Assembly: GCA_027315115.1 (NCBI GenBank)
Contig: DAHUYQ010000016.1
Coordinates: forward strand, 62,001 to 126,000
From: Solirubrobacterales bacterium
GTDB taxonomy: Bacteria > Actinomycetota > Thermoleophilia > Solirubrobacterales > Solirubrobacteraceae
Direction: 5' to 3'
DNA length: 64,000 nucleotides
In this document: positions 8,779-59,325 of the stretch, one piece after another
How positions within the stretch are numbered: position 1 is the first letter of the stretch
Layout of the letters: the number at the start of each line of letters is the position of its first letter
Notes under the pieces: model-generated
The model's input: the letters and a program-made list of their open reading frames with translations, nothing else
The model's database searches: none
What the model was told of the DNA's origin: nothing
Translations under genes and position numbers: made by a program

Positions 8779-9191
8779 CGCCGTCCGCGCGCGGCGGAGT
8801 CGAGCAGGTGCACATCCACGAGCAGCGAGCGGCTGCCGACGATCTGCAGCAGCTCCCCGGCACCGGAGCGTCCACGGCGAGCACGACGATCGCGGGCCAC
8901 GGTGCGCGAGGCGTCGCCCTGCCGGCGACGCGCAAGCCCGACGACGGCGGCGCCGGCGACGAATCCGCCGGCGGCGAGCGCTGCCGCGTGCACAGCGGGG
9001 GCGGAGCGCAAGGTCGAGAGCACGATCGCTCCTCGTGACTCGGGCGCAGCCGGCGCAAGCTGGGCCGCAGGGCCATCGCCCACAGGCACGGCGATCGCGT
9101 CTATTTCCTCGGTGTCGCCCTCGTGCTGTGAGAGGGCCAGCTCGTCGTCCGGGTCGGCGTCCTGCCTGTCGCGGTCCGCACCATCGATCAC
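8775..9191 (-). CDS. Hypothetical protein with one membrane helix, upstream of alkA
   Basis: A 138-aa protein of no recognised family. The N-terminal 40 residues or so are acidic. A hydrophobic Ala/Gly/Val helix follows (AAALAAGGFVAGAAVVGLA, about 70-88), flanked by the basic RRRQG. The last 40 residues end in GELLQIVGSRSLLVDVHLLDS, a patterned strand-like segment. The start at 9191 is GTG. The gene is accepted because its stop and the alkA start share GTGA and because the C-terminus looks structured. It may be a small membrane protein; no role is claimed. Confidence 0.5.
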   Translation of the reverse strand: MIDGADRDRQDADPDDELALSQHEGDTEEIDAIAVPVGDGPAAQLAPAAPESRGAIVLSTLRSAPAVHAAALAAGGFVAGAAVVGLARRRQGDASRTVARDRRARRGRSGAGELLQIVGSRSLLVDVHLLDSAARGRR

Positions 9192-9231
9192 GACAAGCGA
9201 GTCTAGCCCTCTGTCCAGACGTGAGAACGTC

Positions 9232-10389
9232 TCAGCCGAGCTCGCGCTCGTAGACGCGGTAGCGCTTGACGATCTGGCCGCCCATCGCTTCCATCCCGCG
9301 GTTCATCGGCGTGTTGGTCTCCAGGATCCAGCCCATCTCGCCCCAAGTCTGCGGGCGCGCTTCGGCCGCGTCGAAATGCAGTTGGTACAAGCGCGCGGCC
9401 ACCCCTGTGTGCTGGAACTCGGGCTTGACGCCCAGGTAGCCGACGCGCACGCGAGTCATGATTTTGCCGCGGTTGAGGAAGTGCCACCAGCCCAGCGGCA
9501 GCAGTTTGCCTTTCATCTTGGCCAGCACCTGGTTGATGTCGGGGAAGGTGAGCGCCGTGCCGACCACCGTGCCGTCGGATTCGCGCTGCGCGATCATCGC
9601 CCAGTGCTTGTCGAAGACGAGCTGCAGCTCCTGGGCGTAGGCGTCCAGGTCCTTCTTGGAGAAGGGCACGAAGTCCCAGTTTTTGGCCCACGCGGAGTTG
9701 TAGACCTCCGCGAAGCCGTCGAGGTCCTTGCGCAGGCTGCGCCGCTTGATCGGGCGGACCTTGATCCCGTGCTCGGACTGGACCTTGTCGGCCAGCTCCC
9801 AGATCACGGGCATCACTTTGTCGCGCCCGGTGATCGTGAGCTTCCACATGTAGAGGTCGATCGCCTTTGCCATCCCGGCCTGCTCCATCAAGCGCTGGTA
9901 GTAGGGCGGATGCCAGGGCTGGCGGATCATCGGCTCGATCTCGAAGCCCTCGATCAGGACGCCGCTCTCGTCGTTCATCGAGAAGTCGGCGGGGCCGACC
10001 ATCTTCTCGCAGCCGCGCTTGCGCAGCCAGGCCTCCGCGGCGCCCAGCAGCGCGTTGAGGACCTCCAGGTCCTCCTCCAGCTCCAGGAACCCGAACCAGC
10101 CCCATTTGCTCTCGTGGACCTCGTTGTAGGCGTGGTTGATCTGCGCGGTGATGCGCCCGACCACGCGCCCGTCCCGGAAGGCCAGGAAGTACTCGGCCTC
10201 GCCGTGGGTGAAGTAGGCGTTCATCTTCCGGTTGAGGAAGAGCCAGCGCTCCAGCTTCAGCGGAGGAATCCACTGCGAGCGGTTAGCATGCAGCCGGAAG
10301 GGCAGGCCGATGAAGCGTCGCATGTCGCGCCAACCGGATGCCTTTCGGACTTCCACACCCAATGCCCGCTCCTCGCCAACGGCAGCCAT
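9232..10389 (-). CDS. GNAT-superfamily N-acyltransferase, possible ceramide-synthase-like
   Basis: A 385-aa cytosolic protein with two GNAT-like halves. The C-terminal half has the acyl-CoA-binding style segment VGYLGVKPEFQHTGVAARLYQ (about 315-335). The N-terminal half has the FLAFRDGRVVGRITAQIN strand pair. It is encoded divergently from an alpha-oxoamine synthase with only 16 nt between the two start codons. Large GNAT proteins beside a serine palmitoyltransferase-like gene are known in bacterial sphingolipid clusters, where the GNAT enzyme N-acylates the sphingoid base; that role is inferred here from context only. Because of the tight spacing the real start may be later, for example GTG at residue 12 or ATG at residue 23. 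Confidence 0.75.
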   Translation of the reverse strand: MAAVGEERALGVEVRKASGWRDMRRFIGLPFRLHANRSQWIPPLKLERWLFLNRKMNAYFTHGEAEYFLAFRDGRVVGRITAQINHAYNEVHESKWGWFGFLELEEDLEVLNALLGAAEAWLRKRGCEKMVGPADFSMNDESGVLIEGFEIEPMIRQPWHPPYYQRLMEQAGMAKAIDLYMWKLTITGRDKVMPVIWELADKVQSEHGIKVRPIKRRSLRKDLDGFAEVYNSAWAKNWDFVPFSKKDLDAYAQELQLVFDKHWAMIAQRESDGTVVGTALTFPDINQVLAKMKGKLLPLGWWHFLNRGKIMTRVRVGYLGVKPEFQHTGVAARLYQLHFDAAEARPQTWGEMGWILETNTPMNRGMEAMGGQIVKRYRVYERELG

Positions 10390-10405
10390 AGCGGGCTCAC
10401 CTTAC

Positions 10406-11686
10406 ATGGCTACCTCGACAGACGTCTTCGCAAAGGTCCACGGCTACGAGCGGGAAGCGATGGTGCGCGCAGCGCGCGAAGCCGACCTGCTCCCCTACTT
10501 CCGCACCGTCGAGTCTCCGGCGATGCCGGTCGTGGAGATGGAGGGCGCGCCGCGGATCATGCTCGCCTCCAACAACTACCTGGGCCTGACCGGCGACGAG
10601 CGCGTCATGAAGGGCGCGCAGGACGCCCTGCACCGCTACGGGACGGGGCTGACCGGCTCGCGCCTGCTCAACGGCACCACGCCGCTGCACCTGGAGCTCG
10701 AGCGCGAGCTGGCGCAGTGGATGGGGACCGACGACGCGCTGGTCTTCACGACCGGACACCAGGCCAACGTCGGCACGCTCGGCACGCTGCTCGGGCCCGG
10801 CGACACCGTGATCGTCGACTCCGCCGACCACGCCTCGATTCTCGACGGCGCGCTGCTCTCCAAGGCCAAGCTGCGCGCCTTCAGGCACGGGCGCCTGGAG
10901 AAGCTGGAGCGTGCGCTGGAGCGCGCGAAAGCCGACGGCGGAGGCATCCTCGTGGTGGTCGATGGGGTCTTCTCGATGGAGGGCGACATCGCGCCGCTGG
11001 TCGACGTGGTCGAGCTCTGCAAAGCGCATGGAGCGCGGCTGATGGTCGACGAGGCGCATGGCGCCGGCGTGCTCGGCGCACGCGGGGCCGGCGCCTGCGA
11101 TCTGCTCGGCGTCGAGGCGGAGGTCGATCTGCGGATGGGCACCTTCTCGAAGTCGCTGGCCTCCTGCGGCGGCTTCATCGCGGGCTCGGCCGAGGTGATC
11201 GACTACCTGCGCATCTCCTCCCGCGCCTTCCTGTTCACCGCCTCGGCGGTGCCGGCCGCGCTCGGCGCGGCGCTGGCGGCGCTGCGGATCATCCGCTCCC
11301 CGGAGGGGCCGCCGCTGCTGGCCGAGGTGCTGGAGAACGCGCGGCATCTGGCGGATGGGCTGCGGGAGATCGGCTACCGGACGCTGCAGGGCGAGGCCGT
11401 CCGCACCGGGCCCGCGCAAGACGCGCCCTCGGCCAGCTTCACGACCCCGATCGTGCCGGTGCTGGTCGGCGACGACTGGAAGGCCGGCCTGCTCTGGCGC
11501 GCCCTCTACGACGGCGGCGTGTTCACGAACTGCGCTCTGCACCCGGCCGTTCCGCCGGGCGGCGCACTGCTTCGCACGAGCGTGATGGCCACACACGATC
11601 GTGACACGCTCGACCGGGCGCTGGAGGTCTTCGCGCGCGTCAAGCGCGACTTCGAGGCGCAGCACGGCCCGCTGCCGGCGCCGTAG
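10406..11686 (+). CDS. Alpha-oxoamine synthase (serine palmitoyltransferase / KBL-like, PLP-dependent)
   Basis: A 426-aa fold-type I PLP enzyme that condenses an amino acid with an acyl-CoA. Landmarks: SNNYLGL (55-61), the cofactor-stacking His in SADHASI (142), VDEAHGAG (Asp215, His218), and the Schiff-base Lys249 in GTFSKSLASCGGFIAG. The GTFSKS-x3-GGF form resembles bacterial serine palmitoyltransferases more than KBL (GTLGKALG) or BioF. C-terminal segments PVLVGDDWKAGLLWRALYD and LRTSVMATHDRDTLDRAL are normal for the family. Together with the divergent GNAT gene it may make and acylate a sphingoid-like base. The alternative is 2-amino-3-ketobutyrate CoA ligase; no threonine dehydrogenase gene is adjacent. 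Confidence 0.85.
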   Translation: MATSTDVFAKVHGYEREAMVRAAREADLLPYFRTVESPAMPVVEMEGAPRIMLASNNYLGLTGDERVMKGAQDALHRYGTGLTGSRLLNGTTPLHLELERELAQWMGTDDALVFTTGHQANVGTLGTLLGPGDTVIVDSADHASILDGALLSKAKLRAFRHGRLEKLERALERAKADGGGILVVVDGVFSMEGDIAPLVDVVELCKAHGARLMVDEAHGAGVLGARGAGACDLLGVEAEVDLRMGTFSKSLASCGGFIAGSAEVIDYLRISSRAFLFTASAVPAALGAALAALRIIRSPEGPPLLAEVLENARHLADGLREIGYRTLQGEAVRTGPAQDAPSASFTTPIVPVLVGDDWKAGLLWRALYDGGVFTNCALHPAVPPGGALLRTSVMATHDRDTLDRALEVFARVKRDFEAQHGPLPAP

Positions 11687-13802: not shown

Positions 13803-14276
13803 CTACGGCCGACCACGCCGCAGCATCGTCAAGAACCTCACCATCGCGTGAAGCACATTTCGCGGCAGCCCCCTGAACGACGGCATCGGCGAGCGTGGGT
13901 GCAGCAGGACGCGGCGAATCTGACGCGCTGTCAACCGCGAGCCGACATTCGTGAGTGGCTGGCCTGGCCTGCGATTGCCTTCGTCGCCGATGCGGTGACA
14001 GGCAAGGCAACCAGATTTCGCCACCGCTTTGCGGCCTTCCAGGAATTCACGCAACTCCCGTCCGCCCGCGCGGCGGACGGCAGGGGGCGGAGGCACGCTC
14101 AGTTCGACCGGACCGCCGATGTCCACCGCAGCTTTGGCCACCACGCCAGACAGTGCTCCACCCCCGATGCAGAGCACGAGGACCACCGACGCCAACAGCG
14201 CCGAGCCCCCGACATCGCTCGTTCTGCGCCTTCCGCGCATCACGCACCGCCCCACGTTGGCTCCGCAGCTCGACAA
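13803..14276 (-). CDS. Membrane-anchored monohaem c-type cytochrome
   Basis: 157 aa. An N-terminal membrane helix (ALLASVVLVLCIGGGALSG, about 26-44) anchors an extracytoplasmic domain. The haem-binding CxxCH is CLACH (about 89-93), preceded by FLEGRKAVAKSG. The distal Met is likely in RSPMPSF (about 130), followed by the usual helix LHAMVRFLTMLR. It is a class I cytochrome c domain of the kind found as an electron carrier for terminal oxidases or dehydrogenases. Start could be residue 1 or Met13. No oxidase gene is adjacent. It lies downstream of the PadR gene on the same strand with a 74-nt gap. Confidence 0.82.
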   Translation of the reverse strand: MSSCGANVGRCVMRGRRRTSDVGGSALLASVVLVLCIGGGALSGVVAKAAVDIGGPVELSVPPPPAVRRAGGRELREFLEGRKAVAKSGCLACHRIGDEGNRRPGQPLTNVGSRLTARQIRRVLLHPRSPMPSFRGLPRNVLHAMVRFLTMLRRGRP

Positions 14277-14350
14277 CCCATCTCGATCAGCCGAACAATG
14301 CTATCGAATCTACGTAGCTCGGATAGTGCGCTACCCGCGGCTCCCTGCGA

Positions 14351-14977
14351 CTACTCGCCGCCGCGCGTCTCGGCTTCTTGGCGTGCGCGCGTGACCCAGT
14401 CGAGTTGCGCCGCGACCGCGGTCTGCTGCTCGCGGAGCAGCATCAGATTCGAGAGCGCCTGCAGACTCTGCTGCTCACCGGCGGATCGCTCGGCGATCAA
14501 CTCGTCGACCCTCTGCTTATGCAGCTCGGCGTAGTGCCTGTAGCGGTCGAGCTGCTCCCCCAGGGCAGACGGTCCCTGCAGGTGAGCGGTGACGACCCGA
14601 GCGAGCATCTCGTTATGCCATCGCTCGGAGTTGCAAGGGGAGTCGAGCCAGGCCGCATGAGCCGCCAACGCGGCCCCTGTGGGCCGGTAGCTGACGCGCA
14701 TCCTGCGCACACCGGGCCCAGGCGCCGAAGCAGACACGAGGCTTTCGATCAGGCCGGCCTGGTCGAGTCGATCGAGCGCGCCGTATATCGCGGTTCTGCC
14801 CGCGGGCAGAAACGTGCCGAAGCGGCGTTCGTAGCGCTCGCCGATCTCATAGCCGTAGCTTGGCTTCTCCATCACAAGAGCCAGCACCAGCCATTGAGAC
14901 ACGGCTATGACGGGCAGGTCCCTCAGGGATCGGCGCCTACGCACCTCAGCGACCCTCGCAACGTTCGTCGATCTCAT
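14351..14977 (-). CDS. PadR-family transcriptional regulator (PadR-1)
   Basis: 208 aa, with an N-terminal winged helix: WLVLALVMEKPSYGYEIGERY is the PadR recognition motif (SYGYEI), followed by RTAIYGALDRLDQAGLIE and a wing. The C-terminal half is a long helical dimerisation region (about 130-200) with many charged residues. It is divergent from the MMPL transporter at 15294 and so is a candidate local repressor of that export cluster. A palindrome in the intergenic region (15036-15049) resembles one in front of the second PadR gene. Confidence 0.88.
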   Translation of the reverse strand: MRSTNVARVAEVRRRRSLRDLPVIAVSQWLVLALVMEKPSYGYEIGERYERRFGTFLPAGRTAIYGALDRLDQAGLIESLVSASAPGPGVRRMRVSYRPTGAALAAHAAWLDSPCNSERWHNEMLARVVTAHLQGPSALGEQLDRYRHYAELHKQRVDELIAERSAGEQQSLQALSNLMLLREQQTAVAAQLDWVTRARQEAETRGGE

Positions 14978-15293
14978 ATCGCCCCTCCCAGGAGCTCAGC
15001 TCGTAGCGTCTCAATTCATCGTCCCGATTCGAAAGACACGACATCGTGGCGCATGTTTTCGCACAGCGGCATGGGAAGACAACGTCGTGCATGCAGCTAG
15101 AAAGCAAACAGTTGCGGGCTGAAGAGCACCGTTTCTCCATGAACGCGGCGGTTGCTTGAGCAAGCCGAACGCCGCACGAAGTGCTGGGCGCCACCCTCCC
15201 GGTGCTACTGATCTCGACGTGCGGCCGCGTGCGCGCCCGTGGAGGACAGAACGACGAGGAGGGCCCCTCGGTGACGCTGGATCGTGTGGCGGT
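14978..15293. promoter_or_regulatory. Divergent intergenic region with candidate PadR operator
   Basis: This 316-nt gap separates PadR-1 from the MMPL gene and should contain both promoters. The palindrome CACGA-CA-TCGTG lies at 15037-15048. It shares the pattern AYACGRCAYCGTR with ATACGG-CA-CCGTAT at 18247-18260 ahead of PadR-2. No clear -35/-10 pair was identified. A TTG at 15156 opens the MMPL frame earlier, but the region before 15294 has no membrane-protein character. Confidence 0.42.
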
Positions 15294-17492
15294 GTGAACG
15301 CATGGCTGACCAGCCTCGCGAGACGACGGTCGCGAGATGTGCTCTGGTGCGCGGCAGCGCTCACGCTGGGCGCGACGATCTTCGGGCTGCCTGCCACGCA
15401 CCTGCTGCGCAGCGACAGCGAGCAGTTCCAAGACCCCGCATCGGGCTATGAACGCGCGAATGCCGCGATCAGGCACGCCACCGGGCGCGCCTCATATTTC
15501 GGAGTGAATCTGCTGCTTCTCAGCCATGCGCGGATCCCCGACAACCGACGTGCGCTGCGCGCGAGCGGCTACGTCGCCTCGCTGCTCGCCCACCAGCGCG
15601 GCTTTCAGGGAGAGACCGCAAGCACGGATGCGCACGCACATGACCTGATCTCGCGCAGCGGTCGCGAGACGACGGTCCTTGCGGCCTTCGCCTCGCCGGC
15701 CGAGTCCGTGGTGGCGGCCGATCGCGTTCGCGCTGTCTTGCGCCCGCACCGCGCCGCATCGCGTCTGGACGGCATGCGGGCGCTCATCGGCGGCCCGGAC
15801 ATCACGTTCGACGAACTCGATCGCCGCACGATCTCCGACCTTCGCCACGTCGAGCTTCTCGCGATTCCAGTGCTGCTGATGATCTCCTTCTGGGTGTTCG
15901 GCGGCATGATCGCCGGTCTGCTGCCGCTGCTCGTAGGCGGCTTGGCGATCCTGCTCGGCTTCCTTGCGCTGAGGCTCGTCGACCAGGTGACCGGGATCTC
16001 CGTGTTCGCCTTGAACGTGGTCTCGGGGCTGGGCCTCGGCCTCGGGATCGACTACAGCCTCCTGATGGTCCGGCGCTTTCGCCAAGAGCTTGCGCGCGGT
16101 CGCGACCCAGGACGCGCGATTGCCGGCGTCATGCAGTCGGCAGGCCGAACGGTGCTGCTCAGCGCGCTCACGGTCGCGACCGCGATGCTCGCGCTGCTGG
16201 CGTTCCCGCTGGAGTTTCTGCGCTCGATGGCCATCGGCGGCGCGATCACGGCCCTGCTCGCCGGAGCGATCTCCGTGACGGTGCTGCCGGCGGCGCTGGT
16301 GATGCTGGGCGAGAGGGTGGACGCGCTGGCGCCGTTGCGGATGGGCGACCGCGGCACTCTGCCGGGCAGCGAGGCATGGAGGGGCATCGCGCTCGGCGTC
16401 ATGCGTCGACCGGTGCTCGTGGCCGCGCTCGCAAGCGGCGCAATGCTGCTCCTGGCCGCGCAGGCGCTGCATCTGCGACTGAGCGCGCCAAGCGCGACCC
16501 TGCTGCCGGCCTCGGCGCCCAGCCGCGTAGTCGAAGCGAGATTGGCCAGAGACTTCCCACTCAACCCGGCAGCCACGATTCCCGTGATCCTGCCGGCGCA
16601 TTCGGCGGCGGGCAGGAATGCGAGCTCGCGTGCGGCGCTCTACCGCCGGATCGCGGCGCTCGCCAGCACACGTGCGCGTGTGAGCGCGCCCACCGAGCTC
16701 GGCGCGGACACGTGGCAGATCGCGCTGGCGATCCCCGGGTCGCCTTACACCAGCGACAATCAACGCCTGGCGCGAGCGATCGCCGCGCTCACCCACCGCA
16801 GCGGCGCCCTGACCGGCGGGCTGACCGCCTACTTCATCGACCAGCGCGAAGCGATTGCCTCCCACATGCCGCTGGCGCTCGCGCTGCTCGCCGCCGTCAC
16901 GTGCGGCTTCCTGTTCTGGCTGACCGGCTCGCTGGTGCTGCCGCTGAAGGCATTGGCGATGAACGTGCTGACGGCGTCCGCAGGCGCCGGGCTGCTTGTG
17001 GCGATCTTCCAGCGGGGACTCTTGGCGAGCCTGTTCGGCTTCACGCCGATCGGCGGCCTGGAAGAGGCCAACCTCTTGTTCCTGCTGGTCATCGCCTTCG
17101 CTCTCTCGACCGACTACGAGGTGTTCCTGATGGCACGCATCAAGGAGGCGCGTGAGGGCGGCCTGGCCAACGTCGAGGCGATCGCGGCCGGGATGCAGCA
17201 GAGCGGCGGCCTCATCACCGCGGCGGCGCTGCTCTTCTGCGTCGCCGTCGGCGCATTCGTCACCTCGGACCTGTTCTTCGTCAAGCAGTTCGGACTTGGC
17301 GCGGCGCTCACGGTGGCGATCGACGCGAGCGTCGTCCGCATCCTCCTGGTGCCGGCGCTGATGGCGCTCCTGGGCGACTGGAACTGGTGGGCGCCGACGC
17401 CGCTGAGACGGCTGCGAAACCGCTTCGGCAGCCCCGAGGCGACCTTCGGAGCGCAAGTCGCCGTCGACGCGGTGGGCAGCGAGAGCCGATGA
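15294..17492 (+). CDS. MMPL/RND-family transporter
   Basis: A 732-aa exporter of the MMPL type, proton-driven and usually for lipids or hydrophobic compounds. Helix 1 is near residue 15-30. A periplasmic loop follows, then five helices with GIDYSLLMVRRFRQEL (the proton-relay Asp-Tyr pair of the first repeat), a second loop, and six more helices with STDYEVFLMARIKEA as the second-repeat counterpart. GTG 15294 is preferred because the transmembrane protein starts just after it (NAWLTSLARR); the upstream extension is polar. The stop overlaps the start of the first degenerate ABC gene by ATGA, so the two are one operon. Confidence 0.9.
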   Translation: MNAWLTSLARRRSRDVLWCAAALTLGATIFGLPATHLLRSDSEQFQDPASGYERANAAIRHATGRASYFGVNLLLLSHARIPDNRRALRASGYVASLLAHQRGFQGETASTDAHAHDLISRSGRETTVLAAFASPAESVVAADRVRAVLRPHRAASRLDGMRALIGGPDITFDELDRRTISDLRHVELLAIPVLLMISFWVFGGMIAGLLPLLVGGLAILLGFLALRLVDQVTGISVFALNVVSGLGLGLGIDYSLLMVRRFRQELARGRDPGRAIAGVMQSAGRTVLLSALTVATAMLALLAFPLEFLRSMAIGGAITALLAGAISVTVLPAALVMLGERVDALAPLRMGDRGTLPGSEAWRGIALGVMRRPVLVAALASGAMLLLAAQALHLRLSAPSATLLPASAPSRVVEARLARDFPLNPAATIPVILPAHSAAGRNASSRAALYRRIAALASTRARVSAPTELGADTWQIALAIPGSPYTSDNQRLARAIAALTHRSGALTGGLTAYFIDQREAIASHMPLALALLAAVTCGFLFWLTGSLVLPLKALAMNVLTASAGAGLLVAIFQRGLLASLFGFTPIGGLEEANLLFLLVIAFALSTDYEVFLMARIKEAREGGLANVEAIAAGMQQSGGLITAAALLFCVAVGAFVTSDLFFVKQFGLGAALTVAIDASVVRILLVPALMALLGDWNWWAPTPLRRLRNRFGSPEATFGAQVAVDAVGSESR

Positions 17493-18226
17493 GCGCCGTG
17501 CTGTCGTTGGAGGGGGTGGAGAAGGGGTTCTCCCGCGGCGGAGAATGGACACCCGTCCTGGCCGACATCAACCTCCAACTGCACGCAGGCGAGATCACCG
17601 CCATCAACGCCGGCCGCCTGCAAGGCAAGACCACCCTCCTAAAGATCGCCGCCGGCATAGAGCGCCCCGACAAAGGCACCATCCACCTCCAAAACCAAAA
17701 CATCACCAACACCAGCGACCGCCACCGCAGCAAACTCCTCGGCCACCAAATCACCTGGATCGACCGCGACGGCCCCGGCCTCCCCATCCAAACCACCAAG
17801 TACGTCGGCTGGCCCCTCACCCTCCACGGACACAAACGCCGCCAAGCAGAAACAGCCGCAGCCCAAGCACTCACCCGCGTAGGCGCACCCCAATGCGCCA
17901 CCCGCCACTGGAACGAGCTCTCAAACCACCAACGCGTCCTCGTCGGACTCGCACGAGCATTCATCGCCAACCCCACCCTCATCATCATCGACGACCTCCT
18001 CGACGCCCTCGGATACCAAGCCACAGAGCAAACCTCAGACCTCCTCCGCACCCTCATAGACCAAAACACCCCCCGCCCAGCAGTACTCATGTCCACCACA
18101 GACATCGAATCCGCCATCTACGCCGACCACATCCACCACATCACCGGCAAGCACGCCCTGCAGCGCCTCGGGCGGGAGCGCGCGGGTGAGGTGATTCCGC
18201 GACGGCGGATCGCAGACAACCCGTAG
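17489..18226 (+). CDS. Degenerate ABC-type ATPase, copy 1
   Basis: 245 aa, clearly an ABC nucleotide-binding domain of the LolD/MacB type, but its key sites are altered. Walker A is AGRLQGKT (41-48), with the first Gly replaced and Leu at the fourth position; Lys47 is kept. The Q-loop Gln is missing (TWIDRDGPGLP), the signature LSGGQ is LSNHQ (144-148), Walker B ends IIIDD so the catalytic Glu is Asp169, and the H-loop His is Thr204 (MSTTD). ATP hydrolysis is therefore doubtful. After the first 45 codons or so, codons end almost always in C or A, unlike neighbours rich in CTG, GAG and GCG. A near-copy lies at 18929. It overlaps the MMPL stop (ATGA). Confidence 0.8.
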   Translation: MSAVLSLEGVEKGFSRGGEWTPVLADINLQLHAGEITAINAGRLQGKTTLLKIAAGIERPDKGTIHLQNQNITNTSDRHRSKLLGHQITWIDRDGPGLPIQTTKYVGWPLTLHGHKRRQAETAAAQALTRVGAPQCATRHWNELSNHQRVLVGLARAFIANPTLIIIDDLLDALGYQATEQTSDLLRTLIDQNTPRPAVLMSTTDIESAIYADHIHHITGKHALQRLGRERAGEVIPRRRIADNP

Positions 18227-18241
18227 CGCGCCTCGGGGACA

Positions 18242-18270
18242 TGACGATACGGCACCGTATTGTCTATAAG
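18242..18270 (+). promoter_or_regulatory. Promoter with embedded palindromic operator ahead of PadR-2
   Basis: The perfect 6-bp inverted repeat ATACGG-CA-CCGTAT is at 18247-18260. It lies between a weak -35 (TGACGA, 18242-18247) and a -10 (TATAAG, 18265-18270) separated by 17 nt. A protein bound there would block RNA polymerase, so PadR-2 autoregulation is likely. The start codon at 18327 follows about 50 nt after the expected transcription start. Confidence 0.6.
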
Positions 18271-18326
18271 CCTGGACGGTTCCATCATCCCGCACGGGGA
18301 CCGGCTGGTCGGCTAGCATCCCGCCG

Positions 18327-18929
18327 ATGCCTGTGATGAGAACGGGAGACGCGGCGCCGCACATGATGGCGCTCGGCCTGCTGGTCCAGCAGTCCGACAC
18401 GATCGCGGGCGTCGGACGACGCCTGCACGACCAGTTCCGCGCCGCCGGCTTCGCCAGAACCACCGCGTACAGCAGCGTCCCCAGCCTGGCCGCCGATGGA
18501 TTGGCGCTCCTTGTCAGGCCCGCGCCGCCGGAACAGCCCACGCTCGCCTTCTACGAAGCCACGCCCGCCGGCCGCGAGCACTTCCTGCGGTGGATGCGCT
18601 GCACGGACGTCCCGGTCCTAGTCAGAGACATTTTTCAGTGCAAGCTGGAGCTTGCCGAACCGGAGGATGTGCCGGCGATCCTGGAGCTCGTCAACGCGCT
18701 CGAAAACTCTTTCCTGGACATGTGCGACGAGGCCCGAGTCAGATTGCGCCGAGAGCAGCGTTCCAGGAGCTCGCGCCCAGACAAGGCTTCGGAGTGGCGC
18801 CGGCAGATGCGCAGGCTCCAGATCCAGGACGAGGCAGTGCTCTGGACCTCGATGGCGCTGCGCCTGAAGCGCCTTGGCGAACAGCTCGAGAAGATGCACG
18901 CAGGGGCCGTATCCGAAGAGACCTCCTGA
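18327..18929 (+). CDS. PadR-like winged-helix regulator (PadR-2)
   Basis: 200 aa. The N-terminal winged helix (about 12-90) reads MMALGLLVQQSDTIAGVGRRL, then FARTTAYSSVPSLAADGLALL and a wing TLAFYEATPAGREHFLRWM, as in PadR proteins, though the usual GYE motif is replaced. The C-terminal half is helical and charged, for dimerisation. The stop and the start of the second degenerate ABC gene overlap (TGATG). A palindromic operator sits in its promoter. It most likely controls the ABC2-ABC3-FtsX-terpene synthase genes downstream. Effector unknown. Confidence 0.75.
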   Translation: MPVMRTGDAAPHMMALGLLVQQSDTIAGVGRRLHDQFRAAGFARTTAYSSVPSLAADGLALLVRPAPPEQPTLAFYEATPAGREHFLRWMRCTDVPVLVRDIFQCKLELAEPEDVPAILELVNALENSFLDMCDEARVRLRREQRSRSSRPDKASEWRRQMRRLQIQDEAVLWTSMALRLKRLGEQLEKMHAGAVSEETS

Positions 18930-19693
18930 TGGCCAGCGCCGTGCTGTCGTTGGAGGGGGTGGAGAAGGGCTTCTCCCGCGGCGGGGAATGGACACCCGTG
19001 CTGGCAGACATCAGCCTCCAACTGCACGCAGGCGAGATCACCGCCATCAACGCCGGCCGCCTGCAAGGCAAGACCACCCTGCTGAAGATCGCCGCCGGCA
19101 TAGAGCGCCCCGACAAAGGCACCATCCACCTCCAAAACCAAAACATCACCAACATCCCCGACCGCCACCGCAGCAAGCTCCTGGGCCGCCAAATCACCTG
19201 GATCGACCGCGACGGCCCCGGCCTGCCCATCCAAACCACCAGGTACGTCGGCTGGCCCCTCACCCTCCACGGACACAAACGCCGCCAAGCAGAAGCAGCC
19301 GCAGCCCAAGCACTCACCCGCGTAGGCGCAGCAAAGTCCGCCACCCGCCACTGGAACGAGCTCTCAAACCACCAACGCGCCCTCGTCGGACTCGCACGAG
19401 CATTCATCGCCAACCCCACCATCATCATCATCGACGACCTCCTCGACGCACTCGGCTACCAAGCCACAGAGCAAACCTCAGACCTCCTCCGCACCCACAT
19501 AGACCAAAACAACCCCCACCCAGCAGTACTCATATCCACCACAGACATCGAATCCGCCATCTACGCCGACCACATCCACCACATCACCGAGCGGTGCACC
19601 CTCTATCCGCCCAGGCGGCGCGGCAGTGAGGGCAAGGTCATTCCGTTCCCCGCGCGAGACGCCGGCGGCGCCCACGGCATCGGCGCCCCGTAG
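18929..19693 (+). CDS. Degenerate ABC-type ATPase, copy 2
   Basis: 254 aa, a near-copy of the protein at 17489 with the same altered motifs: Walker A AGRLQGKT, signature LSNHQ, Walker B IIIIDD, and ISTTD in place of the H-loop. Keeping the same unusual residues in both copies argues that they are selected rather than decaying. The base composition anomaly (C- or A-ending codons, few G-ending) is also shared. The C-terminus differs from copy 1 (GSEGKVIPFPARDAGG). The gene is followed directly, with no gap, by a canonical LolD-type ATPase and an FtsX-type permease, so it may act as a regulatory partner in that transporter. This role is inference. Confidence 0.8.
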   Translation: MASAVLSLEGVEKGFSRGGEWTPVLADISLQLHAGEITAINAGRLQGKTTLLKIAAGIERPDKGTIHLQNQNITNIPDRHRSKLLGRQITWIDRDGPGLPIQTTRYVGWPLTLHGHKRRQAEAAAAQALTRVGAAKSATRHWNELSNHQRALVGLARAFIANPTIIIIDDLLDALGYQATEQTSDLLRTHIDQNNPHPAVLISTTDIESAIYADHIHHITERCTLYPPRRRGSEGKVIPFPARDAGGAHGIGAP

Positions 19694-20404
19694 ATGCTCG
19701 AGCTGCGAGAACTGGTCAAGCACTACCAGCTCGGCGAGGGCGAGCCCATCCGGGCGGTCGACGGCCTCTCGATGGAGATCGCGCGTGGCGAGTTCGTGGC
19801 GCTCTACGGTCCGAGCGGCTCCGGCAAGACCACGCTGCTGGAGCTGATCGCCGGCCTGAAGGAGCCCGACAGCGGCGTGGTGCTCGTGGACGGACGCAAC
19901 GTCTTCGAGATGTCCCGCAAGGAGGCGCACGCCTACCGGCTGCACCAGCTCGGCATCATCGGCCAGCCGCACAACCTGATCCCGGGCGCCAAGGCGATCC
20001 AGAACGCATCGCTGAAGCTGCTGCTCACCAACGTGCGCAAGGCGGGGCCGACGATCGAACCGCTGCTGGCTCAGCTCGGGCTCGGCCAGCGCTTGCACCA
20101 CCGCACAGAGCAGCTCTCGATGGGCGAGCGCCAGCGCGTGATGATCGCGCTCGCGCTCTCCACAGGCCCTCAGCTCGTGCTCGCGGACGAGCCCACCGGC
20201 AGCCTCGACACGATGCGCACGCGCGAGGTGCTCGAGCTGCTGCGCGATGTTTGCCATGAGCGGGGCGTCGCTCTCCTGCTCGCAACGCACGATCCGCAGG
20301 CAGCCGAGTTCGCCGACCGGGTCGACGAACTGCGCGACGGCCGCCTCACCGGAGGGCTGGCCGTGCATGGCTTGGCTGGAGATCCTCCGCCCGTAGGAGG
20401 CTGA
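19694..20404 (+). CDS. ABC transporter ATP-binding protein (LolD/MacB type)
   Basis: 236 aa with all canonical sites: Walker A GPSGSGKT (about 46-53), Q-loop IIGQPHNLIPGAKAIQN, signature LSMGERQRV, Walker B VLADEPTGSLD and H-loop LLATHDP. The EPTGSLDT sequence and the FtsX-type permease that follows 3 nt later place it in the MacB/LolD/FtsE class, which drive mechanotransmission across the membrane rather than classical transport. Base composition is like the genome average and unlike the two degenerate copies. It should power the permease at 20408. Confidence 0.92.
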   Translation: MLELRELVKHYQLGEGEPIRAVDGLSMEIARGEFVALYGPSGSGKTTLLELIAGLKEPDSGVVLVDGRNVFEMSRKEAHAYRLHQLGIIGQPHNLIPGAKAIQNASLKLLLTNVRKAGPTIEPLLAQLGLGQRLHHRTEQLSMGERQRVMIALALSTGPQLVLADEPTGSLDTMRTREVLELLRDVCHERGVALLLATHDPQAAEFADRVDELRDGRLTGGLAVHGLAGDPPPVGG

Positions 20405-20407
20405 GCG

Positions 20408-22942
20408 GTGGCCGGCATCAACCTCTCCGGGATCTTCTACATCTACAAGGCACGCCTGGAGGCAAGGACGGTCTTGGTCCAGGAGGGGTTCGCGATCATC
20501 GGCATCGCCGTTGGCGTGGCCCTGTTGTTCGCGTCGCAGGTCGCGAGCACAAGCCTCAGCAAGTCGACCTCTCAGTTGACCAACGAGTTCGTTGGCAGCG
20601 CACAGGTCCAGCTCGAGGCTCGCGGCCCTGAAGGCGTCAGCGAACAACTTCTCACCGAAGTACGACGCGTGCCCGGTGTGCGCACGGCCCTGCCGATCTT
20701 CGAACAGCAACTGAACCTGATAGGTCGTCGCGCCGAACGGTCGGTCGACCTGATCGGCGTCGATCCGAGCGCTGTACGAGCGAGTGGGCCGCTGCTCCGG
20801 CGATTCTCGGCCAGGCAACTCGCGGCCCAGCAGGCCATCGCTCTCCCAGACCCGATCGCGGCCGAAATCGGCACAGGTCCTCTGGAACCGGTCAAGCTGC
20901 AAGTCGGCTCGCGCTACATCGAAACGTTGGTCGGTGCGACCCTCGGCGAAGCAGACGTAGGCGCGCTGATCCACAGCCCCGTCGCGGTTGCGACTCTCAA
21001 GTACGCCCAGCGGCTGGCTGGCGCTGCGGGCCGGGTCGACCGCATCTTCGTTCGTTATCTGCCTGCTCAGGCCCGTGAGACGCGGTCCACCCTACGACGG
21101 CTCGCCACGAAGTGGAACGTGAACCTGGTGCCCGGCCGCTTCGATGATCGCCTGTTCGCCGTGGCCGCGGCGCCCGAGACCAACAGCGAGACCCTGTTTT
21201 CGGCGATCAGCGCACTGGTGGGCTTCATGTTCGCGCTCAACGCGATGCTCATCACGGTGCCCGCGCGGCGCGCACTGATCGAAGAGGTGCGGCCACACGG
21301 CGCCACACGCTGGGACACCGTGAAGATCCTACTCTTCGATGCCGGCGTCATCGGACTCCTCGCCTGCGTTCTCGGCCTGCTCCTGGGCGAGCTTCTATCG
21401 ATCGTGGTGTTCAGGAGCACTCCGGGATACCTCGCCGTCGCGTTTCCGGTCGGCAACAGCCGGATCGTGACCTGGCAGAGCGTCGCGCTGGCAATTGTCG
21501 CGGGCATGGGCGCCGCGGTGCTTGGAGTCTTCTGGCCATTGCGTGACGTTCTGCGCCAGCCACTTCAGGGCAGAAGCATGACCCACGAGCGCCACTCGTG
21601 GACCATCGGCAGAGTCCTCGCCGGAGTGCTGTGCCTGGCACTCTCAGCGGTGACGCTCTTCGATGACACGCAGGCTGCGGTCATCGGCAACCTGGCGCTG
21701 GTTCTCGCGCTGATCATCCTGCTGCCGCCCCTCTTCGATCTGCTCGTGACGGGCTTTGGGCGCCTCTCGAACACGCTGAACGGCGTCGCCTCGGCGCTCG
21801 CCGTGACCGAGTTGCAGACGCCGCAGACCAGGGTTCGCTCGCTCGCGATCGCCGCGACCGCGGCCGTGGCCGTCTTCGGCGTCGTTGAGTTTCAGGGCGC
21901 GCAGGCAAACCTTGAAAAAGGCCTGGACGCCGCCTCGCGAGGTCTTGATGCGACCGCGCAGCTCTGGGTGATGCCCGGCGGAAAGACCGGCGTCCAACCG
22001 ACGACCCCCTTTGCGGGACTCGACACGACTGCATTGAGGAGCGTGCCCGGCGTGAGCGACGTGGGCGTCTTTCGAGGCAGCTTCCTCAACTGGGGCGCCC
22101 GCCGCCTCTGGCTGCTGGCGCCTCCGGCGACCACGCAGGCACCGGTGCCCAGCGCTCAGATCACGAGCGGCCGCATGCCTGTTGTCGAGCGCCGCCTGCG
22201 CGAAGGCGGATGGGCAGCGCTTTCTACCGCACTCGCCGCCGAACACCATCTCAGCGTCGGCCAGTCGTTCACGCTGCCGTCACCCCATCCACTGAGGTTG
22301 CGTGTCGCCGCGCTGATCACCAATCTCGGATGGCCGCCCGGAGCTCTGATTCTCGATTCGAGCGCATACGCGCGCGCCTGGGGCAATCCAGATCCGACGG
22401 CCTACACGATCCAAACCAGCGGCAACACGAGCCTTGCCGCCGTGCAAGACCGCTTGAGAGCGGCGCTGGTGGCCAATCCGGGGTTGGTGGTGGAAACGTC
22501 TGCTGAACGAAATCACCGACGCGATGCCATCGCCCGCCAAGGCCTTTCCAGACTGACTGAGATCCGCTTGCTCGTGCTCATCGCCGCCATTCTCGCGATA
22601 GTGGGCGCGATGGGAGCCATGATCTGGCAGCGACGCGACCTGATCGCGTTCATCAAGTGCCAGGGCTATGAAGAGGTGGTGCTGTGGCGTTGGCTACTCT
22701 GCGAAGCGGCGCTCCTGCTGGCAGCCGGCTGCGCGGCAGGAGCAGCATTCGGCCTTTACGGGCAAGCCTTGCTCAGCCACGCATTGACGAGCGTGACGGG
22801 CTTTCCGATGGTCTTCAACATCGAAGGAGTAGCTGCGCTGACGAGCTTCGCCGCGGTGCTTGCAGTGGCACTTGCGGTCGTCGCGGTACCAGGATATCTC
22901 GTCGTGCGTGTACCACCGAACACTGCGGCCCCAGCCTACTGA
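20408..22942 (+). CDS. FtsX/MacB-type ABC permease with two extracytoplasmic domains
   Basis: 844 aa, GTG start. Helix 1 (about 28-48) is followed by a large extracytoplasmic MacB-like domain (about 50-250). Three helices follow near 265-285, 310-335 and 360-385. A second half repeats the pattern: helices near 405-470, one near 480, a second exported domain (about 500-710), and three helices near 722, 765 and 810. This two-unit architecture is typical of long LolC/FtsX-like permeases in Gram-positive bacteria that handle lipids, peptides or lipoproteins. The last 35 nt overlap the terpene synthase start. The substrate is unknown; the neighbour makes a terpenoid candidate reasonable. Confidence 0.88.
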   Translation: MAGINLSGIFYIYKARLEARTVLVQEGFAIIGIAVGVALLFASQVASTSLSKSTSQLTNEFVGSAQVQLEARGPEGVSEQLLTEVRRVPGVRTALPIFEQQLNLIGRRAERSVDLIGVDPSAVRASGPLLRRFSARQLAAQQAIALPDPIAAEIGTGPLEPVKLQVGSRYIETLVGATLGEADVGALIHSPVAVATLKYAQRLAGAAGRVDRIFVRYLPAQARETRSTLRRLATKWNVNLVPGRFDDRLFAVAAAPETNSETLFSAISALVGFMFALNAMLITVPARRALIEEVRPHGATRWDTVKILLFDAGVIGLLACVLGLLLGELLSIVVFRSTPGYLAVAFPVGNSRIVTWQSVALAIVAGMGAAVLGVFWPLRDVLRQPLQGRSMTHERHSWTIGRVLAGVLCLALSAVTLFDDTQAAVIGNLALVLALIILLPPLFDLLVTGFGRLSNTLNGVASALAVTELQTPQTRVRSLAIAATAAVAVFGVVEFQGAQANLEKGLDAASRGLDATAQLWVMPGGKTGVQPTTPFAGLDTTALRSVPGVSDVGVFRGSFLNWGARRLWLLAPPATTQAPVPSAQITSGRMPVVERRLREGGWAALSTALAAEHHLSVGQSFTLPSPHPLRLRVAALITNLGWPPGALILDSSAYARAWGNPDPTAYTIQTSGNTSLAAVQDRLRAALVANPGLVVETSAERNHRRDAIARQGLSRLTEIRLLVLIAAILAIVGAMGAMIWQRRDLIAFIKCQGYEEVVLWRWLLCEAALLLAAGCAAGAAFGLYGQALLSHALTSVTGFPMVFNIEGVAALTSFAAVLAVALAVVAVPGYLVVRVPPNTAAPAY

Positions 22943-24047
22943 GCGCCGGCCAGCACGCAAGCCGAACCGTCTCTCAGCACGGCAGGTCGCTAGCCTGGCC
23001 CATGCCGCATTCCGCGAGCTCAGATGGGGTCTGGCCGCCGTCGCAGAGCAGGTTGACCACTGGCAAGCGTTCGCCCGCTCGATCCCGGATCCGTCGATCC
23101 GTGAGGACGCTCTGCACGCCATCACGCAGCAGCGCAGTCACATAGACGGCGCCGCGCTCTTTTCGACGTTGCCGCGAGCGCGCTCTCCAGCGCTTCTGCG
23201 GCTGCTGGTCGCCTACGAGATCATCTGGGACTTCCTTGACAACTTCAACGAGCGCACCGACGATTTGGGCGTCGCTAACGGGCTGCAACTGCATCGCGCG
23301 CTCGTCGACGCGTTGGATGATGACAGCAAACCCGTCTCTGCGTACTACCTTCATTGCCCGGCCCATGACGATGGCGGATACCTGCGCAAGCTGGTCGCCG
23401 GCTGCCGGCAGTTGTACGAGCAGATGCCCTCACATGCAGCCCTGCGATCGGCCGTAGCGCGCGAGTCGCGTCGAGCGCTCGTGTGCGCAATCAACCACGA
23501 TCCTTCGGCAAACCGCCGAGACACGGCGTTGCGGAACTGGGCAAACGAGGAGTTCCCAGCCGGCCATGAGGCCGCATGGTTCGAGTTGACAGCCGCCGCG
23601 AGCACGAATCTCACTGTGTTCGCCTTGCTGGCGTTGGCGTGTGAGTCGACCTGCATCAGCCTTCAGATCGAACGAGTATCGACTGCCTACTTTCCCTGGA
23701 TCTCAGTTCTCACTGCCATGCTGGACAGCTACGTAGACCAGGTCGATGATGCTGCCACTGGCAACCATTGTTATCTTGCTCATTATCCAACGCACGGCGA
23801 TGCGATTAACAGACTCTGCGAGTTGATGTGGCGCTGCCTCAATGAGGCGACCGCACTCAGAGAGGCGGAGAAGCACTGCGTGATCGCTTCGTGCATGTTT
23901 GCCATGTACCTCACGAAGGACAGCGCCAGAAGCCTTCCGATGCGTTCGTCGACCAGACGCCTCGGTCGCGCCGCAGGACCTATTGCTCGTGCTCTCTACC
24001 CCGTCTTCCTCGTTTGGCGGGCCGCTTACGGCCTACGCGACCAATAG
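22908..24047 (+). CDS. DUF2600 family class IB terpene synthase (YtpB-like)
   Basis: 379 aa from GTG 22908. DUF2600 proteins include Bacillus YtpB, tetraprenyl-beta-curcumene synthase, a large-terpene synthase. Two Asp-rich motifs fit the family: EIIWDFLDNFNERTDD (Asp108, Asp111) and LTAMLDSYVDQVDD (Asp273, Asp277), both in helical context, for Mg-diphosphate binding. The downstream NHCYLAHYP segment is also family-like. The reading frame overlaps the permease by 35 nt from GTG 22908 (or 83 nt from TTG 22860); no start exists after the permease stop before the conserved region. The coupling suggests the terpenoid is linked to the ABC system. Product chain length cannot be told. Confidence 0.82.
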   Translation: MYHRTLRPQPTERRPARKPNRLSARQVASLAHAAFRELRWGLAAVAEQVDHWQAFARSIPDPSIREDALHAITQQRSHIDGAALFSTLPRARSPALLRLLVAYEIIWDFLDNFNERTDDLGVANGLQLHRALVDALDDDSKPVSAYYLHCPAHDDGGYLRKLVAGCRQLYEQMPSHAALRSAVARESRRALVCAINHDPSANRRDTALRNWANEEFPAGHEAAWFELTAAASTNLTVFALLALACESTCISLQIERVSTAYFPWISVLTAMLDSYVDQVDDAATGNHCYLAHYPTHGDAINRLCELMWRCLNEATALREAEKHCVIASCMFAMYLTKDSARSLPMRSSTRRLGRAAGPIARALYPVFLVWRAAYGLRDQ

Positions 24048-24367
24048 CAGGTCCCTGGCGAGCGTATGTCTTCCTGTTCCAGGCGCCTGTTGGAGACCTG
24101 CTGTATGAGTTCCTGCGCGGACTGCTTTAGCAGCCCACGTGCGCCGACCCCAACTGAGCGCCGCGCCTCATCGGCCGCGGCCGCGCTCCCGATCGATGTC
24201 CACTCGCCACCCGCTTCGCGTTACCATGGACCCGCCCCAAGCCACACGGTGACAGCCGCCCGGTTCCCGAGGTGCGCAGCTCGGCGGGCATCCTGGCGCG
24301 TACTGCGCGCCGCGCCGTGACGGGGTGCCGGCCCAGTGGAGGCGACCAAGGCGGTCGCATGACCCCC
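24048..24367. other. Gap without a supported gene at the island's left edge
   Basis: About 320 nt between the terpene synthase and the insertion-sequence remnant. Short open frames here have no start-site or composition support and no recognisable domain. It may be the left boundary of the accessory island. Confidence 0.4.
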
Positions 24368-24760
24368 GTGTAGTGGTCCGGGTGGTCTGGGCCCCGGAGT
24401 CATAAACCGTGCTTTTGCGAGTCAGGCGGCGATTAACTGGTCGTGATGTAGCGTCTCATATTCGGCGAGTGTGAGCATGCCGACGCTTGAATGTCGTCGC
24501 TTGCGGCTGGGAAGATCTCGAGGTACTCGAAGATCGCGTTTGCTAGCTCGAGGCGGGTTCGCCACCACCCTCGGTTGAGCCGCTCGGTCTGCATGCGTGC
24601 CGAGAAGGAGTCCATCATCGCGTTGTCGTAGGCGTGACCGACCCGCCCATGAGAGCGCGAGTTCTGCGGTCTTGACGCGCTCGCTGAAGGCCCACGAGGT
24701 GACCTGCGTCCCGTGATCGCTGTGGATGATCCCGCCAGCGGTCCATCGGCATAGAAGCCA
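24368..24760 (-). mobile_element. IS3-family insertion sequence remnant
   Basis: The 3' part of an IS3-type element. A possible terminal end begins TGTAGTGGTCCGG at 24368, about 50 nt beyond the transposase stop. The other end and the 5' two thirds of the element are missing; recognisable transposase sequence stops near 24760. No target-site duplication can be defined. Confidence 0.62.
24422..24760 (-). pseudogene. IS3-type transposase (integrase core), truncated and frameshifted
   Basis: Only the C-terminal part of the DDE integrase core is present, split over two frames. Frame one gives GGIIHSDHGTQVTSWAFSER, the HSDxG motif with the second catalytic Asp. The sequence then continues in another frame as YDNAMMDSFSARMQTERLNR and LELANAIFEYLEIF, the region with the last catalytic residue. 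It returns to the first frame for RKRRHSSVGMLTLAEYE, the usual RRRHSSLG C-terminus. At least two frameshifts and loss of the N-terminal half make it inactive. Confidence 0.82.
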
Positions 24761-24806
24761 CGACCAGCGTCGGCAAAGTTGCGTCACCGATTTGTCGTCG
24801 CTTCTC

Positions 24807-25259
24807 CTAAACCGCACGAAGCGCAATACTCTCAATCCATTCTCTACATGGTCCGGCCACCCCGACAATCACCTCGGGCGTCAGCACGCAAACCAGCCAC
24901 CATCCCCCATATCCGATTCGTTCACCGGTCACGTTACACTCTCCAAGCCGAACGTCAATAGACCGCCACAACTCGCGACTGGCGCCCAGACGACCCATTT
25001 CGGCGCTCATCGCGGCGGGGGCCACGCGATTCACCAAAAACCACGAGAGAAGGGCTTCGCGCGCCGCGTGCGGGGTGAGTGGGTAAGCTTCGCAGTGACC
25101 AAGCACGCAACGACGCGCGCGGTCTAGGACAACTACCATGATGTCTCCTCCTCCCCCAGGCCTCCGGTGCGAGAACTCGCGCATTCTCGTCCCACTGCCT
25201 ATCTCCATTGACACCCAATCGTCATCAACAAGGACATAACCCGGCAGCACTGGCACCAT
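24807..25259 (-). CDS. Small orphan protein, candidate immunity protein of the RHS gene
   Basis: 150 aa, unrecognised. It starts 28 nt after the RHS stop on the same strand, the usual place of the immunity gene in polymorphic toxin loci. The product is compact and alternates hydrophobic strands and helices (MVPVLPGYVLVDDDWVSMEI, DIMVVVLDRARRCVLGH, GGWWLVCVLTPEVIVGVAG) with no signal peptide, as expected of a cytosolic binder. The 3' end lies close to the IS3 remnant but appears intact. GC is lower than in core genes nearby. The immunity role is inferred from position alone. Confidence 0.5.
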   Translation of the reverse strand: MVPVLPGYVLVDDDWVSMEIGSGTRMREFSHRRPGGGGDIMVVVLDRARRCVLGHCEAYPLTPHAAREALLSWFLVNRVAPAAMSAEMGRLGASRELWRSIDVRLGECNVTGERIGYGGWWLVCVLTPEVIVGVAGPCREWIESIALRAV

Positions 25260-29001: not shown

Positions 29002-29011
29002 GCGCCGGCGA

Positions 29012-29131
29012 TCAGGGGTGTCGTGGCGGTGGGCAGTCGGTTGGAAACGCTTCGAGCTCCGCGTCGCGCCCCGCCAGCTTCAGCGGCTTCACGCCGGAGC
29101 CCGGCGTATATGGGTTGAGACGCTGATCCAT
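29012..29131 (-). pseudogene. N-terminal fragment of an AAA-type ATPase gene
   Basis: A 39-codon frame starting ATG 29131 reads MDQRLNPYTPGSGVKPLKLA then GRDAELEAF. This is the conserved N-terminus (NPYTPGxGxxPPxLxGRDxEL) of a family of actinobacterial AAA ATPases, in which a Walker A normally follows about 25 residues later. Here similarity stops after ELEAF. The frame runs ten more codons to a stop, and the truncated RHS gene begins 11 nt further on. It marks a recombination junction at about 29012-29045. Confidence 0.7.
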
Positions 29132-59090: not shown

Positions 59091-59105
59091 TCCCCTGCGC
59101 CGGCC

Positions 59106-59315
59106 TATCGGCCGGTCTCAACTAGACGGTCGAGAGTCAAGCAAGGCAAGGACGCAGCGAGCGTGGCGTGCTCCGCACGCGAGCGAGCGAGGACGCCGCC
59201 TCGCGCCGGCTATCGGCCGGTCTCAACTAGACGGTCGAGAGTCAAGCAAGGCAAGGACGCAGCGAGCGTGGCGTGCTCCGCACGCGAGCGAGCGAGGACG
59301 CCGCCTCGCGCCGGC
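59106..59315. repeat. Perfect 105-bp tandem duplication
   Basis: Two identical 105-bp units run 59106-59210 and 59211-59315, with the first bases of a third copy. Each unit has the short hairpin GCGTGC-TCC-GCACGC. The length is a multiple of three and the units are open in one frame, but no credible gene starts there. Confidence 0.9.
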
Positions 59316-59325
59316 TATCGGCCGT

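Follow-up and report, generated by a model that had tools for sequence, protein, structure and literature searches.

We report on a pair of near-identical genes for predicted ATP-binding cassette (ABC) ATPases, twins A and B, that lie in a 64,000-nucleotide stretch of a Solirubrobacterales genome (the window; assembly GCA_027315115.1, contig DAHUYQ010000016.1, positions 62,001 to 126,000; host genome 3.3 Mb in 65 contigs). Throughout, DEG denotes a degenerate and CAN a canonical ABC ATPase, and loci and genomes are numbered Lnnn and Gnnn, respectively. Between positions 15156 and approximately 24047 seven genes follow each other on the plus strand in the order MMPL, twin A, PadR-like, twin B, CAN, permease and DUF2600, and the features of the region, with the evidence for each in brackets, are:

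14351 to 14977, minus strand: PadR-family regulator, transcribed away from the gene block (Pfam PF03551, 36.6 bits, cut-off 27)
15156 to 17492, plus strand: MMPL-family membrane protein (Pfam PF03176, 219.6 bits)
17489 to 18226, plus strand: twin A, a DEG in extra copy (PF00005, 67.5 bits, cut-off 25; motifs; codon use)
17550 to 18145 (approximate), plus strand: A/C-rich tract of twin A (base composition)
18327 to 18929, plus strand: PadR-like regulator that opens the conserved operon (likeness to position-equivalent genes in other loci)
18929 to 19693, plus strand: twin B, the DEG in the conserved operon position (PF00005, 67.8 bits, cut-off 25; relatives in L061 and L062 in the same position)
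18990 to 19588 (approximate), plus strand: A/C-rich tract of twin B (base composition)
19694 to 20404, plus strand: CAN, with an LSMGERQ signature and intact Walker A, Walker B, Q-loop and H-loop (PF00005, 106.6 bits)
20408 to 22942, plus strand: YbbP-like permease with two FtsX stretches and ten hydrophobic segments (PF02687 in two stretches; hydropathy)
22860 to 24047, plus strand: predicted DUF2600/YtpB-type terpene synthase, putative start (PF10776, 286.9 bits, cut-off 25)

The MMPL stop overlaps the start of twin A (ATGA), the PadR-like gene overlaps twin B (TGATG) and twin B abuts CAN; the DUF2600 reading frame overlaps the end of the permease gene, its start codon at 22860 being provisional. 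No Rfam match was found within 14000-25000. A first-pass annotation of the window had placed a PadR gene between the twins. Neither Pfam nor NCBIfam yields a match for that gene at an E-value of 0.001, and we call it PadR-like since genes in its place elsewhere match it and some of these also match the PadR gene at 14351-14977. A PadR-like gene precedes DEG in 18 of an initial set of 19 DEG loci, while the nineteenth (L062) begins at a contig end.

The twins align over 655 bp at 95.6% identity and differ at 15 of 218 aligned residues (codons 2 to 219 of A), much as the first-pass annotation had described them. Past codon 219 the tails are dissimilar, and both hold a G-x-V-I-P piece like the one in several DEG-family tails, which suggests an old pair with a core homogenised by conversion. 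Gene conversion, proposed in the first-pass annotation, or a recent duplication would account for the likeness, and the two are indistinguishable here. Both proteins have AGRLQGKT as Walker A, LSNHQ as signature, IIIDD as Walker B and TTD at the H-loop, in agreement with the first-pass annotation. Measured against the canonical forms of Walker A, the Walker B Glu, the H-loop His and LSGGQ and against the canonical neighbour, they depart from all four, and the twins are thus, by motif, probably not catalytically competent. Their frames are nevertheless open and the ratio of non-synonymous to synonymous change (dN/dS) between them is 0.39 (NG86) or 0.36 (LWL85), where a pseudogene would have a broken frame or a ratio near 1. 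In a predicted structure of twin B (pLDDT 86.7, pTM 0.82) the ABC ATPase fold is retained, with a Foldseek E-value of 1.3e-19 against BceABS chain B and with BceA, MacB, LolD and YbbA among the best 15 matching solved structures, although the underlying alignment contained canonical relatives and so favoured this outcome. The low-confidence part of the model is mostly tail (residues 223-235 and 243-254).

Judged by the same motifs, these defects extend beyond the twins and characterise a family of degenerate ATPases, the DEG family. In an alignment of 16 DEG sequences the H-loop His is present in none, the Walker B Glu is present in five and the Walker A Lys is replaced by Arg in L010 and L011. 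This alignment served as query against 399 genomes of the class, with a threshold of 200 bits and at most six candidates scored per genome, and 25 genomes have a DEG match of at least 200 bits, representing six genera, three families and one order. (A looser threshold of 1e-45, passed by 253 of the 399, includes canonical ATPases and gives no DEG count.) One locus per DEG-positive genome was then inspected for motifs, yielding 26 DEG and 23 CAN. The H-loop His is found in 0/26 DEG vs 23/23 CAN, all of which read THD. The Walker B Glu position is Asp in 18 DEG, Glu in seven and Gln in one, and Walker A has Lys in 22 and Arg in four. A canonical and a degenerate ATPase are encoded together at 23 of the 25 loci, and the two short loci L171 and L175 show no CAN; five further loci in the same check hold canonical ATPases only. 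Among 15 additional DEG, a His stands one place past the H-loop position in three (L241, the second DEG of L243, and L245). We found no DEG orthologue with intact motifs. Since the pairing of an idle with a working ATPase recurs across related bacteria of one order, the twin defect appears to be a kept design and not decay. It had been argued in the first-pass annotation that decay would have altered different residues in the two copies. That argument is weak for copies this young, and the family-wide defect is the better support for its view that pseudo-ATPases are retained next to an FtsX-type permease, in our reading under constraint, with which the dN/dS ratio also agrees.

Gene order is conserved along with the motifs. 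DEG adjoins CAN in 17 of the 19 loci first studied, and the order DEG-CAN-FtsX occurs at eight of nine DEG loci in the host genome and at nine of ten loci in the same genus. The respective exceptions are L017 (G000:C39), where DEG, permease and DUF2600 occur without CAN, and L068 (G007:C124; 6898-8783), a PadR-DEG pair with no CAN or permease within the 14 kb examined. Beside the complete operons of L243, L249 and L250 there is a surplus DEG without a CAN of its own, so that the presence of a second DEG recurs, perhaps as an alternative partner. The DEG pairs of these loci are only 59, 34 and 32% identical, respectively, and near-identity is therefore peculiar to twins A and B.

As to the partners, the best NCBIfam model for CAN is LolD (178.5 bits, under the cut-off of 307.75). 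In the permease, ten hydrophobic segments are arranged as 4+2+4, with two large outside domains, and the combination of an FtsX domain with units of four transmembrane segments is that of type VII (MacB/YbbAP-class) systems; against the YbbP equivalog model NF041854 it scores 19.7 bits, below the cut-off of 999. The DUF2600 protein matches tetraprenyl-beta-curcumene synthase (PDB 5yo8; E-value 6.3e-40). Its Asp-rich motifs read WDFLDNFNE and LDSYVDQVDD, and D124, D127, D289, D293 and D297 are invariant in all 13 aligned DUF2600 sequences. By homology, the window gene is a predicted member of the DUF2600/YtpB-type terpene synthase family.

DUF2600 is rare, being present in 16 of 299 class genomes and in one of 296 genomes sampled from the phylum, namely that of the window. 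All nine DUF2600 copies found in the host genome adjoin an operon-type permease, seven with DEG and two on contigs that end inside CAN. The 19 DEG loci first studied include 14 with DUF2600; it is absent from L010 and L012, L066 and L070 end at contig edges, and L068 has no permease. In 11 DUF2600 genomes of the same family, with at most seven candidates scored per genome (G044 and G147 had nine and ten), DEG is near DUF2600 at 38 of 44 listed loci. The remainder comprises two loci that end inside CAN, three with CAN and FtsX without DEG (L237-L239) and one with neither (L247). Scored by distance alone (<6.5 kb; not all loci read gene by gene), 29 DEG/DUF2600 pairs have the two genes on the same strand in 24 cases and on opposite strands in five, with a DEG-to-DUF2600 distance of 3.34-3.56 kb in 23. 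Opposite strands were also seen in L240, L241, L242, L248 and L251. At five DUF2600 loci in other families there were no DEG, CAN or permease neighbours, with L235 and L246 ending at the DUF2600 gene itself.

Trees were computed for DEG (20 sequences), CAN (17) and the permease (18), and all three place the window with L061 and L062. The CAN and permease trees resolve this group as ((window, L061), L062) with supports of at least 0.91, L013 being the next to join; the DEG tree pairs L061 with L062 at only 0.63, groups both with the twins at 0.997 and adds L013 at 0.48. The closest relatives found of twin B (50 and 44% identity) come from the same genus and the same operon position. Between the window and L061, identity is 48% for DEG, 78% for CAN and 65% for the permease, and the corresponding values for L063 and L066 are 76, 75 and 56%.

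The agreement of the three trees and the position of the closest relatives disfavour the idea, put forward in the first-pass annotation, that the genes were imported. We regard it as very improbable that the twins are horizontally acquired or plasmid- or phage-borne pseudo-ATPases that keep the codon use of a donor. Their codon use does differ from that of their neighbours, as an import would predict, but the bias gives way to normal codon use before either end of the gene is reached, and it extends to codon positions 1 and 2. Moreover, phage and plasmid matches are all below 60% identity (at most 34% among the matches listed), and the search of viral contigs turned up no relative. A scan of named genomes yielded general ABC ATPases alone, at 25-35% identity.

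The bias itself is pronounced. We compared 194 interior codons of each twin with an expectation from five neighbouring genes, using 2000 simulations each. Third positions are A or C in 93.3% (A) and 90.7% (B) of the codons, close to the "nearly all" of the first-pass annotation, vs 54.6 and 55.7% expected (simulated maximum 65.5%, z approximately 12). No T-ending codon occurs in the 194, where about 21 were expected, and third-position G amounts to 7-9%. Specifically, Gln is CAA in 25/25 cases, Ala is GCG in 0/45 and Leu is CTC in 35/44, and G-ending codons are still frequent for Lys (7/12) and Glu (8/12). The first approximately 13 codons and the tails of both twins have normal codon use. Over all codon positions, the A+C fraction of the twins is 0.71-0.72 vs 0.39-0.48 in eight other DEG genes (two from the host genome). 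Counting changes on the twin branch against the majority rule of relatives, not by full reconstruction, we obtained keto-to-amino changes at 29/79 sites and the reverse at 8/58 for position 1, 23/84 and 7/59 for position 2, and 50/58 and 0/39 for position 3. Since positions 1 and 2 are shifted too, the shift acts at the level of bases and is not codon tuning alone. For the first-pass annotation, orthologues with intact motifs and normal codon use, or a dN/dS ratio near 1, would have made these ordinary duplicates or pseudogenes. Neither intact motifs nor such a ratio was seen, but orthologues with normal or opposite codon use exist (the DEG genes of L061 and L062 carry G/T-rich tracts), and the bias is thus a local feature and not a trait of the protein family. 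On these comparisons the codon bias is a local, strand-specific base shift in which the coding strand of an inherited gene has lost G and T.

Tracts of this kind were scanned for in 450-bp windows, with an A+C fraction of 0.62 or more, or of 0.38 or less, as the criterion. We found seven in 158.5 kb of operon loci of the host genome and two in 789.7 kb of its other stretches, four in 113 kb of relatives' operon loci and two in 237 kb of their other stretches, and nine in 873 kb from 80 loci of other organisms. The window, selected on account of the twins in the first place, contributes to the seven, and among the four further tracts those of L010, L011 and L013 are related copies, which implies fewer independent events; L016, a sugar-type ABC locus with one marginal tract, was dropped from the operon set. 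G/T-rich tracts lie in the IclR/PadR genes of L010, L011 and L013 and in the MMPL gene of L012, and a 50-codon stretch of L010 has third-position frequencies of 0.68 for G and 0.28 for T. Within the window, an NHL/RHS-repeat open reading frame (25291-29079, minus strand) has an A/C-rich third-position tract in mid-gene (27101-27900) on its own coding strand, with normal ends. The IclR-PadR stretches with G/T-rich third positions span 6601-7900 in L010, 11051-12000 in L011 and 7801-8600 in L013, that of L010 being approximately 80% like each of the other two. The IclR-like frame of L013 has an early stop and runs into sequence common with L010 (8070-8392), and L010 also contains a long imperfect repeat array (8724-10990) whose units recur every 72 bp or so, judging by the spacing of its self-matches.

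Three causes of the bias were considered and rejected. For an antisense gene, the codon-aligned antisense frame is broken at TCA (A and B) and CTA (A), as judged by eye, and the open shifted frames follow from third positions without T. Translational selection would have to contend with PadR/IclR genes of the same genome that are biased oppositely and with the shift in positions 1 and 2. Pure deamination would give more A than C in third position, and on the twin branch G to C (38) outnumbers G to A (12), so that deamination would also require C-to-G events on the opposite strand. It is possible, though to us doubtful, that the twins record a strand-specific local mutational process linked to recombination between paralogues, by which one strand would lose C (to T and G) and A over approximately 600 bp. 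Such a process might account for the change of tract sign between orthologues, A/C-rich in the twins and G/T-rich in L061 and L062, and for the clustering of tracts around the operons. Mitochondrial strand asymmetry offers one comparison. By analogy, the tracts could also be likened to clusters of damage in single-stranded DNA, and the listed work on strand-coordinated clusters of this sort concerns yeast and human cells. If confirmed as mutational, the tracts would represent an unusual local genome change in bacteria.

Returning to function, we think it probable, with some reserve, that twin B, with twin A as an extra copy, is the non-hydrolysing ATPase of an asymmetric type VII complex with CAN, and that this complex is tied to the terpenoid of the DUF2600 protein. 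The fused, pseudo-symmetric double permease would hold DEG by one half and CAN by the other, given that one of each is the simplest reading of a two-sided fused permease encoded with two unlike ATPases. Composite site 1 (Walker A, Walker B and H-loop of CAN with the signature of DEG) would hydrolyse ATP, and composite site 2 (Walker A and B of DEG with the signature of CAN) would at most bind it. The complex may act on or with the DUF2600 product, in the simplest case a large terpenoid that is drawn out of the membrane; such a cargo is suggested by the DUF2600 link and by the reported role of YbbAP with hydrophobic compounds of the membrane. Expression would be set by the PadR-like genes, and twin A may be an additional DEG that resembles B through recent duplication or gene conversion.

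Several observations weigh against this proposal. The DEG-CAN dimer is a prediction, and CAN could act as a homodimer with DEG as its regulator. L017 has a DEG without CAN, L068 a PadR-DEG pair without CAN or permease, L010 and L012 have DEG-CAN-FtsX without DUF2600, and G017 holds a DEG-CAN pair with no DUF2600 match. The strand differences among the DEG/DUF2600 pairs make DUF2600 a neighbour and not always an operon member. In L237, L238 and L239 the order is DUF2600-CAN-FtsX, with DUF2600 first and no DEG, possibly an all-canonical version. With LSNHQ, the twins have a degraded signature as well, so that even the working site would be weakened, and the faster divergence of DEG relative to CAN and permease in the window subclade could mean relaxed constraint.

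It strikes us as rather unlikely, if worth serious attention, that DEG is instead a separate regulator, an ATP sensor or inhibitor that would dock on a permease with two CAN subunits or compete with CAN, the twin doubling its dose. This would suit the three loci without DEG (L237-L239), the DEG without a CAN of their own (L068, L243, L249 and L250) and the PadR-like gene ahead of DEG in nearly all loci. It sits less well with the adjacency of DEG and CAN (17/19 and 23/25 loci), with the narrow range of DEG-DUF2600 spacing (23/29 pairs), and with the ABC fold kept in the model and the Walker A Lys kept in most DEG, as expected of a subunit at the same interface. That the twins are ordinary decaying duplicates is hardly credible: the fast evolution of DEG in the window subclade would agree with decay, but the open frames, the dN/dS ratio, the tight gene overlaps and the recurrence of this type of defect across 25 of the 399 genomes do not.

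Elsewhere in the window, a reading frame just past DUF2600 (24422-24868, minus strand) resembles what we take to be an IS3-type integrase remnant, and a 123 bp direct repeat with 99% identity lies at 59097-59324.

With respect to known systems, the DUF2600 protein is like the YtpB/BalTS tetraprenyl-beta-curcumene synthase in belonging to PF10776 and in having counterparts of both Asp-rich motifs, given there as DYLDNLxD and DY(F,L,W)IDxxED (PMC7839719). It is only 27% identical to an Anoxybacillus YtpB-type protein, whose gene has no ABC gene among those listed within 5 kb in an incomplete gene table. According to PMC7038271, deletion of ytpB in B. subtilis was without effect on BceAB activity, and this gives no support to a general link between YtpB and type VII systems. 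The order PadR, ATPase, FtsX-like permease recurs on the Kitasatospora plasmid NZ_CP108290.1, which differs in having one ATPase and, among the genes listed there, neither a degenerate partner for it nor a DUF2600 gene. Among the matches listed, mostly outside subscription journals, neither a degenerate or heterodimeric ATPase pairing in MacB/FtsX systems nor a DUF2600/YtpB-linked transporter of the DEG-CAN kind was seen in titles and abstracts.

The combination of a canonical with a degenerate site, predicted here from the genes, resembles the heterodimeric exporters TM287/288 and TmrAB. In these, a changed Walker B Glu often accompanies a changed H-loop, and TmrB has Asp at that position (PMC7756269, PMC8277102). 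Unlike the predicted DEG-CAN complex they are type I exporters in the wording of the review, in which "type VII" and "MacB" each occur 0 times (PMC7756269). The B. subtilis type VII exporters share the FtsX-like fold of the MacB and Bce classes; they differ in that the type VII table rows for FtsE, YclH, YknY and YtrE give the same ATPase twice (PMC11466899). The type VII machines considered here for comparison (YbbAP, LolCDE and several of B. subtilis) use one ATPase twice, and an order that has multiplied pairs of apparently idle and intact ATPases offers a natural setting in which to ask why degenerate sites persist. The association of DEG/CAN operons with a YtpB-type synthase is, in turn, a gene-level lead to movers or extractors of such terpenoids. 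Finally, the closest parallel in layout is E. coli YbbAP(-TesA), with a separate ATPase, a YbbP permease of ten transmembrane segments (4+2+4) with internal pseudo-symmetry (PMC12646458) and two outside domains (PMC5985334); the title of the former gives extraction of hydrophobic compounds from the membrane as its role. YbbAP has its ATPase twice (2:1:1 with TesA), whereas two different ATPase genes, one of them degenerate, are present here, and a terpene synthase gene takes the place of the lipid hydrolase (PMC12646458).

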